From contig NZ_JAAGOB010000019.1 of NCBI RefSeq assembly GCF_010550695.1, positions 1 to 63,821 of the forward strand: a stretch of DNA of 63,821 nt, written 5' to 3'. Under the pieces are notes generated by a model. The model worked only from the letters and a program-made list of their open reading frames with translations. It was not told the origin of the DNA and did not search any database. A program made the position numbers and the translations under genes. This DNA is from Phytoactinopolyspora alkaliphila. GTDB taxonomy: Bacteria; Actinomycetota; Actinomycetes; Jiangellales; Jiangellaceae. Position 1 is the first letter of the stretch, and each line of letters begins with the position of its first letter. Below, one piece after another: positions 12,273 through 62,072 of the stretch.

Positions 12273-13412
12273 ATGACGGAGCGAGTTCGGGTTGCCATCG
12301 TGCTGTCGACGAGCAGTGGTGGAATCGGTCGCCACGTCCGGTCGCTCGTCGACCGGCTGGAGGCGCGTGGCGTCGAGCCGCACGTCGTCGCACCTGCGGT
12401 GACCGGAGAGAACTTCGGGTTCACGGCACCCGCGTCGGGGAGCGCGCCGGTGCATACGCCGGTCAGGTTCAGTGCTGTGGAGATTCTCACCCGGCCGCGG
12501 CCACGCCACGACATGCGCGCGGTCCGAGCGCTGCGTCGCCTGCTCCGGGATGCGGATGTGGTGCATGCGCACGGCTTCCGGGCCGCCGCGTTGGCCGGGC
12601 TCGCTCTGGGCCGCCGCCGCGCCGGGCGCACGCCGCTGGTCGCCACGTGGCACAACGCCGTGCTTGGCAGCCCGCCCCGGCGAGCATTGCTCGTGGGACT
12701 GGAGCGCCTCGCCGCGCGCCGCGCGGACGTCACTCTGGGAGCGTCGGCGGACCTGGTCGAGCGTGCTGCCGCACTGGGTGCCGACGACGCCAGGCTGGCG
12801 CCGGTGGCGGCTCCCGCGATGCCGCCTCCGTCCCGTAGCCGTGCCGAGATGCGGGCCGAGCTCGGCGCAGCCGATCGTCCGGTTGTTCTCGCCGTGGGCA
12901 GGCTGGCCCCGCAGAAGGACTACGAGACTCTCCTGGCGGCCGTCGCCCGCTGGGCCACGCGTGAGCGGCAACCGCTCGTCGTCGTGGCCGGTGACGGCCC
13001 GGAGATGGACCGGCTGCGCCGAGACGCGGACAATGCGCGGATCGACGTGCGTTTCCTGGGGCACCGTGACGATGTGCCGGAGCTGCTCAACGCTGCCGAT
13101 GTCTACGTGATCACGTCTCGCTGGGAGGCAAGGGCCCTGGTCGTGCAGGAGGCGATGCGCGCCGGTGTTCCGGTGGTGGCTACGGCCGTGGGTGGGCTTC
13201 CTGAGCTGGTCGGCGAGGATGCGCTATTGGTTCCGGCGGCCGACCCCGGAGCCGTGGCGGCGGCTGTGACCCGCCTGCTCGATGATCCCGGGCTGCGGAC
13301 GGAACTCGCGGAACGGGCCCGGCTCCGGTCGCGGCAGTGGCCGGACGAAGACGGCACCGCCGACCAGCTGGTGCGGATCTACCGGGAACTGGCAACCCAG
13401 CCATCCCCATGA
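12273..13412 (+). CDS. Glycosyltransferase family 4 (GT-B)
   Basis: 379 aa with two Rossmann domains. The N-terminal half has the acceptor motif LSTSSGGIGRHVRSLVDRLE; the C-terminal half has AVGRLAPQKDYETLLAAV and the donor-binding EX7E motif SRWEARALVVQEAMRAG, then VVATAVGGLPELV. It is a retaining nucleotide-sugar glycosyltransferase, probably cytoplasmic, making a cell-envelope glycoconjugate or glycolipid; the substrate is not readable. ATG 12273 is preferred over GTG 12270 because GGAGG (12264-12268) is 4 nt before it. The TGA stop (13410-13412) lies inside a palindrome. Confidence 0.88.
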   Translation: MTERVRVAIVLSTSSGGIGRHVRSLVDRLEARGVEPHVVAPAVTGENFGFTAPASGSAPVHTPVRFSAVEILTRPRPRHDMRAVRALRRLLRDADVVHAHGFRAAALAGLALGRRRAGRTPLVATWHNAVLGSPPRRALLVGLERLAARRADVTLGASADLVERAAALGADDARLAPVAAPAMPPPSRSRAEMRAELGAADRPVVLAVGRLAPQKDYETLLAAVARWATRERQPLVVVAGDGPEMDRLRRDADNARIDVRFLGHRDDVPELLNAADVYVITSRWEARALVVQEAMRAGVPVVATAVGGLPELVGEDALLVPAADPGAVAAAVTRLLDDPGLRTELAERARLRSRQWPDEDGTADQLVRIYRELATQPSP

Positions 13413-13466
13413 TCATCGACGTTCGACCGAGCCAATGACGCGGCCAAACGTTGATGATCATGGGGA
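13404..13466. repeat. Intergenic palindrome overlapping a stop codon
   Basis: 20-bp arms at 13404-13423 (TCCCCATGATCATCGACGTT) and 13447-13466, 19 of 20 positions complementary, with a 23-nt loop. The glycosyltransferase stop codon is within the left arm. A third, degenerate half (CATCCCCGATGTTGATGATG) follows from 13478. It could act as a bidirectional terminator between the convergent neighbours, but has no T run. Confidence 0.8.
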
Positions 13467-21050: not shown

Positions 21051-21979
21051 GCGAGCACACGGGACTAGCCAAGGCGGTCAGGGCCTATCTCGATCATCTG
21101 GCGGTCGAGCGGGGCCTGGCGGCCAACACGTTGGCGTCCTATCGCCGCGATCTTCGCCGGTACGTCGAGTTCCTAGCCGCTCTCGGCAGAGTCGAACCCA
21201 CCGACGTGCTGGAGAGCGACGTGATGGCCTTCCTGCGCAATCTCCGCGAGGGGAGCGACGCCTACCCGGCCCTCGGTGCCAGCTCGGCGGCGCGGACCGT
21301 CGTCGCTGTCCGGGGGCTGCACCGTTTCCTGTGCCGGGAAGGCATGACAGACGTAGACCCGGCGCGGACGGTCCGGCCGCCGGCCCCGCCACGCCGGTTG
21401 CCGAAGGCGATCCCCCTCGACCAGGTGGAGCGGCTGCTGGCGGCGGCCGCCGTGGGGGACGGGCCGCGCGCCCTGCGGGACCGCGCGCTGCTGGAACTGC
21501 TCTACGGCTGCGGGTCGCGGATTTCCGAAGCGGTGGGGCTCGACCGCGACGACGTCGACCTGGAGACCGGCACCGTGGTGTTGCGCGGCAAGGGCGGGAA
21601 GACCCGGATCGTGCCAGTCGGCTCCTACGCGACGTCGGCCCTGGAGGCGTATACGGTGCGCGGCCGTCCCGGTCTGCTGGGGTCCGGACCGGGAACGCCG
21701 GCGTTGTTCCTCAACGCCCGTGGTGGCCGGCTCTCCCGGCAGAGCGCGTGGACTGTTCTGCGTTCCGCCGCCGAACGCGCCGGCCTGGGCACCACGGTCT
21801 CGCCGCATACGCTGCGGCATTCGTTCGCTACCCACTTGCTCGACGGTGGCGCGGACGTCCGCGTGGTACAGGAACTGCTCGGCCATGCGTCGGTCACCAC
21901 CACCCAGGTGTACACGCTGGTGACGGTGGACCACCTGCGCGAGGTGTACGCCGCGGCCCACCCCCGCGCCCGCGGCTAA
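21047..21979 (+). CDS. Tyrosine recombinase XerD, CTG start
   Basis: 310 aa site-specific recombinase that with XerC resolves chromosome dimers at dif. The N-terminal SAM-like domain begins [20 protein letters not shown], the catalytic domain has the conserved residues in GCGSRISEA (Arg), [10 protein letters not shown] (Lys), [11 protein letters not shown] (His-x-x-Arg), [14 protein letters not shown] (His and nucleophile Tyr). No ATG or GTG exists in frame before the SAM-like domain; the first canonical start is TTG 21131, which would delete 28 residues including [14 protein letters not shown] 21047 has GAGG at 21036-21039 (7-nt spacing) and overlaps the ald stop as CTGA. Family length (about 300-310 aa) supports it. 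Confidence 0.88.
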
Positions 21980-22065
21980 ATGATCATGTAAACCATGCTT
22001 TCTCGTGCTTCACCATGCCTGCAGACCTGGTGAAGCACGAGAAAGCATGGTTTACATGATCATTT
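21978..22065. repeat. 88-bp near-perfect palindrome after xerD
   Basis: Arms of 38 bp, 21978-22015 and 22028-22065, are perfectly complementary around a 12-nt loop containing CTGCAG. The left arm begins within the xerD TAA stop codon. The sequence contains TGATCATG near both ends and CATGCTTTCTCGTGCTTCAC inside. A 53-bp copy with 2 mismatches is at 63645-63697. In RNA this would form a very stable hairpin. It may be a repeat element, a terminator between xerD and parA, or both. Confidence 0.9.
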
Positions 22066-22162
22066 GGGGGCGGCTGGCCCGGGGGGTGGGCTGGGGGATA
22101 GGGGCGCCAGAAAGAACCGGGCACCTGCGGTGCGGCTACGCGAGGCATCGCCCGGGAGCGAG

Positions 22163-59678: not shown

Positions 59679-60425
59679 ATGCTGGAGGAACTGGGCGAGT
59701 TCGCCGACGCGATCTTGGCGGTCGCTGAGGACGCCATGTCCTCCCCGTGGATCTATGCGCTGATCTTCGGCTTCGCGATGCTCGACGCCTTCTTCCCCGT
59801 GGTACCGGGTGAGACGCTGGTGATCACCGCGGGCGTCTTTGCCGCCAGCGGAGAGCCGTCCCTGTTGTGGGTGATCGTGGCCGCGGCTGTCGGCGCATTC
59901 GTGGGTGACCATGTGTCCTACGCGATCGGCCGGACTGCCGGAGTGCGCTTGCGCAATCGCTTCCTCGGGGGGAAACGCGCGACTACGGCGATCGCGTGGG
60001 CGACGGATGCCCTGGAGCGTCGCGGAGGCCTGATCCTGGTCGTGGCGCGGTACATCCCGGGCGGCCGGACAGCGGTCACGCTGACCTGTGGGACCGTGCA
60101 CTACCCGCTGCGAAAGTTCAGCTTGTTCGACCTGTTCGCGGGGTTGTCCTGGGGCGCGTACTCTGGCCTGATCGGCTACTTCGGAGGTAAGGCGTTCGAG
60201 GAGGACCCCCTCCGTGGCCTGCTGCTTGGTCTCGGTATCGCGTTGGGCATCACCGTCCTGGTCGAGCTGATCCGTCATGTCATCAACCGTCGTCGTCGCA
60301 CGAACGGCCGGCTCTCTCACCTCGGAGTCGAGGATGGCTCCGAGGTCGAAACGGCGGACGGTGAGGCGGCGGGCCTGGTCGAGGTCCCCGACCTTCCGGA
60401 CGACGGTGGACCGCAGCGCGGCTAG
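59679..60425 (+). CDS. DedA-family membrane protein
   Basis: 248 aa with five or six hydrophobic segments and the DedA signature: FPVVPGETLVITAGVFAASG, then ARYIPGGRTAVTLTCG with the conserved R...PG.R motif. DedA proteins take part in membrane lipid and proton homeostasis, some as undecaprenyl-phosphate recyclers. The C-terminal 40 residues are charged. ATG 59679 follows GGGGAAGAGG (59667-59676); GTG 59643 is an in-frame alternative. A palindromic element lies 26 bp downstream. Confidence 0.88.
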   Translation: MLEELGEFADAILAVAEDAMSSPWIYALIFGFAMLDAFFPVVPGETLVITAGVFAASGEPSLLWVIVAAAVGAFVGDHVSYAIGRTAGVRLRNRFLGGKRATTAIAWATDALERRGGLILVVARYIPGGRTAVTLTCGTVHYPLRKFSLFDLFAGLSWGAYSGLIGYFGGKAFEEDPLRGLLLGLGIALGITVLVELIRHVINRRRRTNGRLSHLGVEDGSEVETADGEAAGLVEVPDLPDDGGPQRG

Positions 60426-60450: not shown

Positions 60451-60668
60451 GTCACCTGATCATCGTTTTGTCGTCTGATCGCGTTCGGGCGTGTCCCGTT
60501 GTGGATCAGATGACGTAGTCGGTACTTCAAGCGCGGTTGTGCCCTCTGATCGTTCCGCGTCCATATCGTGGGATGAGATCAGACGGCACAACCGTGCCCA
60601 TGCGGCGCGTTAGTACACCTGGCCTGTTCCAGGAAGATGATCAGACGACATATCGACGATCAGGTGAC
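60451..60668. repeat. 218-bp nested palindromic element
   Basis: Outer inverted repeat of 30 bp (60451-60480 and 60639-60668, 27 of 30 complementary) with an inner one of 19 bp (60533-60551 and 60577-60595, 17 of 19). TCTGATC or GATCAGA occurs at each of the arms and once more at about 60504. There is no ORF with a Shine-Dalgarno. It lies between the convergent dedA and tldE genes and could be a small non-autonomous mobile element or a structured intergenic repeat. Confidence 0.75.
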
Positions 60669-60680
60669 ACACACCCGGGG

Positions 60681-62072
60681 TTACGACGCTTGGCTGACCG
60701 ACGACATGTTGAAGTCGGGCACACGTAGGGCCGGCATCGCGGTACGCGGAAAGAACTCGCCCAGTTCACGGCCGAACGCCGGACCGGTGGCGCCTGCCTG
60801 GGTGAAGCGCTCGAGCAGCTCCACCGGGCTCTCGTTGAACCGGAAGTTGTTCACCGCCCCGGTGACCTCCCCGTTGCGGACCTGGTACACGCCGTCTCGG
60901 GTCAGGCCGGTGAGAAGCAGCCGCTGTGGATCGACCTCGCGGATATACCACAGGCAAGTCAGCAGGAGACCGTCCTCCACCTGTGCTGCCAGGTCGTCGA
61001 CGGTGCCGGAGCCTTCGGCCACCGTCATCCCAAGGTTCTCGATCCCGGGCGTGACCGGCAGGCCAGTGATGTCGGCGGCATGGCGGGTGTGCATGAGGGC
61101 GGACAGCCGGCCGTCGCTGATCCACTCGGTGCGTTGGAGGGGGAGCCCGTTGTCGAACACACTCTGCACCGATGACGACGCTCGAGCCAGCGCGAACGGG
61201 GCCGACTCCAGGCCGGGCGCCACGGGGTCGGACCAGAGGCTGACCGGATGCGGCGACAGTCTGTCCCCGACCCGGGTTCCCTGGCCTGGCGTCGCGAACA
61301 CTGTGCGGCCCTCGTGTGCGTCGCGCGCTCCCATGGAGAAGTACGCATAGATCATCAGATCGGCCACTGCCGAGGGCGGCAGCACGGTGTCGTAGTGCCC
61401 TGGTGGTAAGGCGATGGTACGTTCGGACCAGGTCAGCCGGCGATGCAGTTCGGCGTCGAGCCCGGCGACGTCGATATCCGATGGTGTAAGGAACGACTGG
61501 CCCGCCCACGCCGAGGCTGACCGGTCGGCGGACATGCCGGTGGTGGTGATGTGCCCGGACGGCTGTGCGTGACGCAGGGCCAGTCCGACTGAGTTTCCCA
61601 GGTAGGTGGTGGTGAGCACGTCCTCCACGTAGCCGAAGAGGAGCCGGTGACCGGAGCGCGCCCGCTCAAAGGCATCGCCCAGCGCCGGAGCAACCGTCGT
61701 GAACGCCGACGCCGACGTGAGCGCGGGTGGCTCGGTCCAGTCCGGTGAAGCGTCGCCGGTGACGAGTGGGCGGGCGTCCTCGGCTGGGCCGTTGGTCCGG
61801 GCGGCTTGTTCCGCGGCACGCACGAGCGGTTCGAGGTCTTCGGAGGTGACCGCGTTGCGGGCAACGACGCCCGAGGCGACGCCGGTGCCGTCCTCGACAG
61901 TGGCCATCACCGTGACCTGGCGGTCGTGCATCACGCCATTGGTGGTCAGCGCGTTGTTCGCCCATCGCAGATTGGCCGTGGAGGTCTCGTCGACCAGCAC
62001 CGTCGTTCCGTGGGCTTTCGACAGGCCGAGACAGCGCTCGACGATCTCCTGTGGTGTCATCGGCCCGGTCAC
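60681..62072 (-). CDS. TldE/PmbA-family metalloprotease partner
   Basis: 463 aa. The C-terminal region resembles the PmbA/TldE fold (TGVYQVRNGEVTGAVNNFRF) and there is no HExxxH site, as expected for TldE, which lacks metal ligands. TldE and TldD form a heterodimer that degrades or matures peptides (microcins, some RiPPs, and CcdA in Escherichia). GTG 62072 overlaps the tldD stop as GTGA, and MTPQEIVERCLGLSKAHGTT follows; ATG 62060 is an alternative. The end of the gene is 12 bp from the palindromic element. Confidence 0.92.
   Translation of the reverse strand: MTGPMTPQEIVERCLGLSKAHGTTVLVDETSTANLRWANNALTTNGVMHDRQVTVMATVEDGTGVASGVVARNAVTSEDLEPLVRAAEQAARTNGPAEDARPLVTGDASPDWTEPPALTSASAFTTVAPALGDAFERARSGHRLLFGYVEDVLTTTYLGNSVGLALRHAQPSGHITTTGMSADRSASAWAGQSFLTPSDIDVAGLDAELHRRLTWSERTIALPPGHYDTVLPPSAVADLMIYAYFSMGARDAHEGRTVFATPGQGTRVGDRLSPHPVSLWSDPVAPGLESAPFALARASSSVQSVFDNGLPLQRTEWISDGRLSALMHTRHAADITGLPVTPGIENLGMTVAEGSGTVDDLAAQVEDGLLLTCLWYIREVDPQRLLLTGLTRDGVYQVRNGEVTGAVNNFRFNESPVELLERFTQAGATGPAFGRELGEFFPRTAMPALRVPDFNMSSVSQAS

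Follow-up and report, generated by a model that had tools for sequence, protein, structure and literature searches.

The 218-bp palindrome between dedA and tldE of Phytoactinopolyspora alkaliphila belongs to a mobile family of arrays with constrained sites and spacings, and is likely a non-autonomous copy of an array of double-stranded-DNA binding sites in a REP/REPtron-like relation to a gene encoding an AbiEi/DUF559 protein. The same arrays are found at both sides of this gene in four genomes, and the protein encoded between them is probably the mobilising enzyme, for which it is the candidate. The element lies near the end of the window, which is the whole stretch of 63,821 nucleotides that was analysed.

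The original prediction was of a nested palindrome, either MITE-like or a structured regulatory repeat. The palindrome is real and its limits were placed correctly: the outer arms (60451-60480 and 60639-60668) match at 27 of 30 positions, the inner arms (60531-60551 and 60577-60597) are 21 nt long with 90% complementarity, and five TCTGATC/GATCAGA units are present as claimed. It is also without a gene, the stop codons of dedA (60425, 25 nt ahead of the left head) and tldE (60681, 12 nt past the right head) both lying outside. Inclusion of variants brings the sites to eight (Table 1), with start-to-start spacings of 19, 32, 39, 34, 39, 23 and 19. Folded as RNA, the element reaches -119.2 kcal/mol against -83.8 +/- 4.7 for shuffled sequences (z -7.5, 0 of 200 as low), and BLAST against its own genome gave 113 matching stretches at E<=10, the best non-self match having an E-value of 1.7e-17. 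Because the fold beats the shuffles and the genome holds many matches, the element is far from chance.

Table 1. Features of the element and its flanking genes, in window coordinates (> and < give site orientation)
Feature	Position	Strand	Sequence or remark
Whole two-headed element	60451..60668	.	8 sites, order >> < > < > <<
Left head	60451..60480	+	two direct sites 19 bp apart; faces dedA 3' end
Right head	60639..60668	-	faces tldE 3' end
Site 1 (>)	60453..60461	+	CACCTGATC
Site 2 (>)	60472..60480	+	CGTCTGATC
Site 3 (<)	60504..60512	-	GATCAGATG
Site 4 (>)	60543..60551	+	CCTCTGATC
Conserved centre	60558..60575	-	family consensus TCTCACGATGTGGACG
Site 5 (<)	60577..60585	-	GATCAGACG
Site 6 (>)	60616..60624	+	CACCTGGCC, degenerate; spacing as expected from family frame
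Site 7 (<)	60639..60647	-	GATCAGACG
Site 8 (<)	60658..60666	-	GATCAGGTG
dedA-like gene	59679..60425	+	open frame from 59643
tldE/pmbA-like gene	60681..62072	-	convergent with dedA

The 113 stretches merged into 41 copies in the P. alkaliphila genome (G000; 5.5 Mb, 33 contigs), including the window's own and one head-only copy, a count for which 40 of 76 first-look candidates were scored; the idea that no other copy exists anywhere can therefore be dropped. Copies were found through head similarity, so decayed ones are under-counted, and a strict head pattern recovers 36 heads in G000, some at places outside the 41 copies. In the family alignment, which was built on the right-head end of the window element (60639..60668), the copies consist of a single 9-bp site, CACCTGATC / GATCAGGTG with variants, repeated in either orientation. 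The canonical form, >> < > < > with start-to-start spacings of 19, 23, 39, 34 and 39, spans 165 bp, and arrays of 165-240 bp with 6-8 sites and near-fixed spacings are present in four genomes of three genera, the spacing of 34 being mostly replaced by 33 in two of them (G011 and G027). A regular expression recognised ten two-headed elements among the G000 loci, seven of which measure 217-240 bp. One G011 copy (L049) has a head with three direct sites at 19-bp intervals, not two.

The sequence is kept mainly at the sites and the centre, since information content there is high and the loops diverge, while loop length hardly varies. In 20 G000 copies, a selection that inflates the site values because every one of the six sites had to be in frame with no more than 4 of 9 mismatches, inner site columns average 1.70 bits, loops 0.53 and the centre 1.25, and the mean pairwise identity of two copies is 90% in sites and 40% in loops. 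The first long spacer was measured in heads with strict first three sites (132 heads, 123 with the next site in range), and is 39-40 in 20/20 heads of G000, 39-40 in 18/44 and 49-52 in 25/44 of P. limicola (G004), 39-41 in 21/34 and 49-51 in 12/34 of G011, and 39-41 in 22/25 and 49-50 in 3/25 of G027, with none of the 123 at 42-48 and two outliers at 69 and 71. Because these classes differ by about one helical turn, the step points to proteins on double-stranded DNA.

The head pattern is present in seven of 22 genomes of the family and seven of 393 of the class, which are the same seven (reversed-pattern control 0), with 160 heads in G004, 35 in G011, 27 in G027 and one each in G022, G024 and G028; three other members of the genus lack it. 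A stringent full pattern matched only Phytoactinopolyspora limicola HAJB-30 and Haloactinopolyspora alba DSM 45211 (33 stretches) among 84,980 species, a collection that may omit the genome of the window itself and a pattern that G027 mostly fails, having a spacer of 33 in place of the 34 demanded (22/23). Among the genomes searched, this dispersed repeat is restricted to Jiangellaceae.

The copies move, as follows from their patchy presence in Jiangellaceae and from two G004 copies (L092 and L098) that lie at unrelated places and share 97.5% identity over 611 bp, a stretch that ends 7-16 bp outside the heads. Shared positions are few, 2 of 34 G011 loci having a neighbouring gene in common with any of 38 G000 loci. 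At the junction under study, the array is absent in G001, G002, G003 and G005, in which dedA is downstream of tldE; in G004 an array directly follows tldE and dedA is further off. Occupation of the same site in all relatives is thus contradicted, as among four relatives of the same genus only G004 has the array after tldE. One of the loci without it (L112, G003) contains a different long inverted repeat downstream of tldE, CCGGATAAGGGTTCTCCCGG..., which suggests that the tldE-dedA junction is repeat-prone.

The MITE-like description holds in that the element is small, non-autonomous, dispersed in many patchily distributed copies, recently mobile in a relative and bounded by terminal inverted repeats, and fails in the matter of target duplication. 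A scan of 39 two-headed elements, covering lengths 3-9 at symmetric offsets of 0-25 and lengths 4-9 at unequal offsets, brought out none, with 3/39 at length 3 as the strongest symmetric signal. What the flanks of a pair often form instead is an inverted repeat specific to the copy. In four paired elements of G004 (L087, L097, L099 and L104) these repeats are perfect, 9-17 bp long and different between elements, as though one end were a copy of the other, possibly made by template switching. Two others (L090 and L093) have one end half in common, at 97.9% over 513 bp, and differ in the other half, and the element ends may therefore recombine. Of the 20 fetched G004 loci, 19 had been chosen for a +/- head pair, so that they give no measure of how common pairing is in this genome.

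The arrays have a preference for gene 3' ends in three of the four genomes. The gene outside the array points toward the head in 22/26 cases in G000, 38/45 in G004, 27/34 in G011 and 16/27 in G027 (103/132 in total), with median stop-to-head distances of 16, 19, 22 and 43 bp, respectively, and some distances above 500 bp. These placements come from crude codon-model gene calls, which left one of 133 heads with no neighbour, and the G000 set comprises 25 strict heads plus the left head of the window, added by hand, the right head failing the strict pattern. The weak preference in G027, near the half expected by chance, speaks against the favoured explanation. In eight G004 cases the distance implies that a TGA within the head itself serves as the stop codon. 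A similar placement was reported by Di Nocera and colleagues for REPs of two species, most convergent ones of which lie no more than 20 bp from the 3' ends of the ORFs on both sides (PMC3733652).

This placement also bears on two readings of the element as a local signal. Repeated binding sites at regular spacing would suit operators of a transcription factor's regulon, a very unlikely role for arrays whose heads face 3' ends oftener than 5' ends (103/132) and whose near-identical 611-bp copies include the spacer too. The strength of the predicted fold (z -7.5) could in turn indicate a structured RNA or a cis-regulatory hairpin between dedA and tldE, to which we give next to no credence: the same array accompanies many unrelated genes, it is absent after tldE in G001, G002, G003 and G005, Rfam gave zero matches to the element up to E=1, and 40 copies (the head-only copy L042 being left out) show no Watson-Crick covariation above shuffled columns. 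The top column-pair score among the pairs listed for these copies was 22.1, five column shuffles peaking at 16.5-24.7, and the highest-scoring pairs among those listed are not nested helix pairs. The structured regulatory repeat that had been proposed is therefore not supported as an RNA, having helical-turn spacing in place of covariation or an Rfam match, and the strong fold is a by-product of inverted sites. A viral origin was also considered and rejected; three IMG/VR contigs match the head pattern, none with an array, and were taken as chance matches, two of them (L221 and L223) resembling coding sequence by eye.

In addition to dispersed copies, the arrays form tail-to-tail pairs, heads outward, around cargo. 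One gene family is the cargo in G000 (L033, L051), G004 (L050, L056), G011 (L057, L145) and G027 (L059, L184, in which the gene is interrupted), with members that are 55-66% identical. The unit of gene and arrays is located between sdhB and pcrA in G011, and adjoins sdhB in G027 and G022 and pcrA in G004, placing the partner gene at sdhB/pcrA in members of three genera. Within one genome, gene flanks and dispersed copies mostly carry the same site variants, the dominant one being TGCACCTGATCTCCG in G004, where some copies have the other form, and GTCACCTGATCGTCG in G000. Array traces on one side of the gene are left in G010 and G029 (the sdhB side) and in G022. At 28 paralog loci examined outside the close clade, these arrays were not found.

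Several loci run against the preferred explanation. G010 and G029 have the gene at this site without a match to the head pattern. The nearest relatives of the gene in G001, G002, G003, G005 and G009 (47-55% identical) have neither sdhB nor pcrA in the fetched flanks. The sdhB-pcrA array pair of G000 (L009:1577-2674) encloses a glyoxalase gene (Pfam PF19581, E 2.3e-38), the AbiEi/DUF559 gene of this genome lying elsewhere between arrays of its own, and the cargo between array pairs can therefore differ. At 28 paralog loci examined outside the close clade, these arrays were not found.

The partner protein is predicted to combine an AbiEi-like DNA-binding N-terminus with a DUF559/Vsr-like nuclease C-terminus. 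PADLOC assigned AbiEi to both members scanned (3.3e-11 and 8.9e-19), Pfam gave DUF559 for one clade member (0.011, below the curated cut-off) and AbiEi_4 for a paralog (2.2e-5, just below the cut-off), and six members had no NCBIfam match up to E=1. A 17-member profile matched the endonuclease-like protein 3hrl in the PDB over the C-terminus (E 5e-5), and its N-terminal match to 6y8q, an abortive phage infection protein, was not significant (E 0.56). The residues D239, E250, G253 and H256 (numbering of the first sequence) are invariant in the 17 aligned members, in agreement with D...E-x-D-G-x-x-H, which we take to be the DUF559/Vsr-like nuclease motif. By sequence, the protein resembles no tyrosine transposase, and four clade members and three paralogs had no Pfam Y1 transposase match up to E=5. 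A single-sequence AlphaFold2 model (mean pLDDT 38) was set aside.

Where a genome lacks these arrays, members of the wider clade of the AbiEi/DUF559 gene have other repeats at their flanks, including ACCGACAT...ATGTCGGT-like palindromes in G001, G003 and G005, GATCATGAGTCA arrays in G009 and a 48-bp direct repeat in G002. Matching repeats at both sides, defined by a score >=18 within 400 bp, were found at 23 of 35 Jiangellaceae loci, at 20 of 30 loci of other actinobacterial families (drawn from 27 genomes, 12 of which had a match) and at 0 of 20 tldE control loci, whose best score was 14. In these counts orthologous loci are not independent, the control is a single gene family, and the matches include non-palindromes, namely long duplications (L238 and L247) and direct repeats (L246 and L255).

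Palindromes flanking the family are dispersed in most genomes tested. The CCATGATCAT...ATGATCATGG type is present in 19 of 22 Jiangellaceae genomes with 9-111 copies each (control 0), and its copies flank AbiEi/DUF559 genes in G022 (C1:7587028/7588115) and G021 (C3:2881931/2882996). Two more near-perfect palindromes of the window, of the ATGATCAT type (13404-13466 and 21970-22073), apparently belong to a second dispersed family, which flanks other AbiEi/DUF559 genes and of which an exact pattern finds 20 CCATGATCAT palindromes in G000. ACCGACA...TGTCGGT occurs 25 times in G005, 12 in G000 and 10 in G003 (controls 0, 0 and 1), compared with 7 vs 5 for pattern and control in G001 and 4 vs 4 in G004. 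In a member of another bacterial family (G033), a 45-bp palindrome was matched 54 times over both strands, which makes 45 distinct places (control 0); two of these flank the AbiEi/DUF559 gene at C1:111645-112514, and the same pattern had 0-4 matches in three other genomes. The TTGCGTCCG...CGGACG palindromes of this genome are of several subfamilies that differ in the stem, each perhaps belonging to a single AbiEi/DUF559 gene.

Co-divergence of protein and palindrome was considered as well and rejected. Their similarities correlate at 0.30 over 44 loci (0 of 1000 permutations as high), a weak value that counts against the preferred explanation; this reflects close relatives only, as the correlation is -0.03 among 776 distant pairs and -0.17 at 18 loci from outside Jiangellaceae. 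The set was drawn from 69 loci in range, six of which were dropped by hand as duplicates or broken pieces and 19 more left out for a flank score <18, a match >120 bp or short flanks.

Two further accounts of the arrays have to be set against mobilisation by the AbiEi/DUF559 protein. Inverted ends with several binding sites, internally deleted forms, the glyoxalase cargo of one pair and the movement itself would all be expected of a classical MITE or transposon-end family, moved by some DDE or HUH transposase, with the AbiEi/DUF559 gene a passenger between two ends. We regard this as unlikely, given 39 pairs without target duplication, the same gene clade within array pairs in four genomes of three genera, the lack of arrays at the paralog loci outside that clade, and the unrelated repeats that flank relatives of the gene in other families, which a chance passenger would not explain. 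Less improbable, though still doubtful, is that the arrays are architectural or terminator sites kept by the host, which a DNA-binding protein would coat at gene 3' ends, blocking read-through or organising the nucleoid, with the AbiEi/DUF559 gene no more than autoregulated by the flanking copies. In favour of such sites, the site columns stay conserved where the loops do not, the heads follow stop codons closely in three of four genomes, the helical phasing would fit a large nucleoprotein complex, and AbiEi-type antitoxins autoregulate through inverted repeats (PMC7319586). Against them stand a distribution that is patchy even inside one genus, almost identical copies at sites with nothing in common, arrays at both sides of the gene and the few shared positions (2/34 G011 loci). 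An architectural role is compatible with mobility, and the two are not exclusive.

Under the preferred reading, mobilisation by the partner protein, the AbiEi part would assemble a nucleoprotein complex by cooperative binding to the CACCTGATC sites and the nuclease part would cut, so that copies would be made or placed mostly beside gene 3' ends. Binding of the array sites by the protein is a prediction made plausible by the AbiEi antitoxins, which bind inverted repeats (PMC7319586), and cut-and-copy chemistry by the DUF559 part is likewise predicted.

In layout the arrays are closer to REP/BIME elements than to MITEs. According to PMC2817692, two inverted REPs always flank the RAYT gene, and the TnpAREP groups are described as having co-evolved with their REPs (PMC8266576). 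As in a REPtron, the gene lies between two inverted copies of its own repeat (G000, G004, G011 and G027), many intergenic copies are dispersed near gene 3' ends (weakly so in G027), and no target duplication was seen. The protein differs, resembling AbiEi plus a DUF559/Vsr nuclease and not the HUH Y1 tyrosine transposase, and because it is of a different kind the array system is not a member of the REPtron family, although it may work like one. REPs are palindromes or hairpins of 20-40 bp with a GTAG or CGTC tag, and the arrays, with 6-8 helically phased sites, fall outside this definition by their size alone (165-240 bp). The host is also different, being actinobacterial, while RAYT homologs were described as lacking in other major bacterial lineages at the date of PMC2817692.

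Parallels exist with other systems. RAYT-like genes of some species are flanked by unrelated inverted repeats (TIRtrons), which are likewise gene-specific repeats at a single gene, some in repeated families (PMC3733652), with the difference that the TIRtron enzyme is a tyrosine transposase. CGTC-tagged REPs are also palindromes at gene 3' ends, described as having no known mobilising gene (PMC3733652), unlike the arrays, to which a candidate gene is linked. AbiEi antitoxins of type IV toxin-antitoxin systems have a related N-terminal DNA-binding domain, and one such protein, Rv2827c, binds two sets of inverted repeats in a promoter (PMC7319586); here a nuclease-like C-terminal domain replaces the antitoxin domain and the arrays are dispersed over the genome. 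MITEs are also short, without a gene, with inverted ends and many copies, yet the arrays differ in that target duplication was not found, sites are kept while loops are lost, and the partner, the AbiEi/DUF559 gene carried by the full elements, is not a known transposase. Ends of the Tn7/Mu type, which are acted on by DDE transposases and produce 5-bp duplications, have several transposase-binding sites per end; the arrays share the multiple sites and differ in showing no duplication.

The arrays and their gene look like a counterpart, not reported before, of the bacterial REP repeats with their transposases; no report of an association between AbiEi/DUF559 genes and palindromes was found in open-licence full text, part of it covered by title or start of abstract. 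A broader proposal, which we hold to be evenly poised, is that AbiEi/DUF559 proteins form a class of mobilising nucleases that is tied to repeats, independent of HUH enzymes and widespread in Actinobacteria, each member recognising the palindromes at its own flanks and having seeded them over the genome, mostly at gene 3' ends, and that one Jiangellaceae lineage turned a simple palindrome into a helically phased array. In the excerpts of the literature compared, REP-type repeats have one kind of partner enzyme, the HUH tyrosine transposases. A second, unrelated partner, if true, would mean that systems of a gene plus dispersed palindromes arose more than once, would hint at what an as yet uncharacterised protein family of Actinobacteria does, and would account for many of the intergenic palindromes of Actinobacteria.
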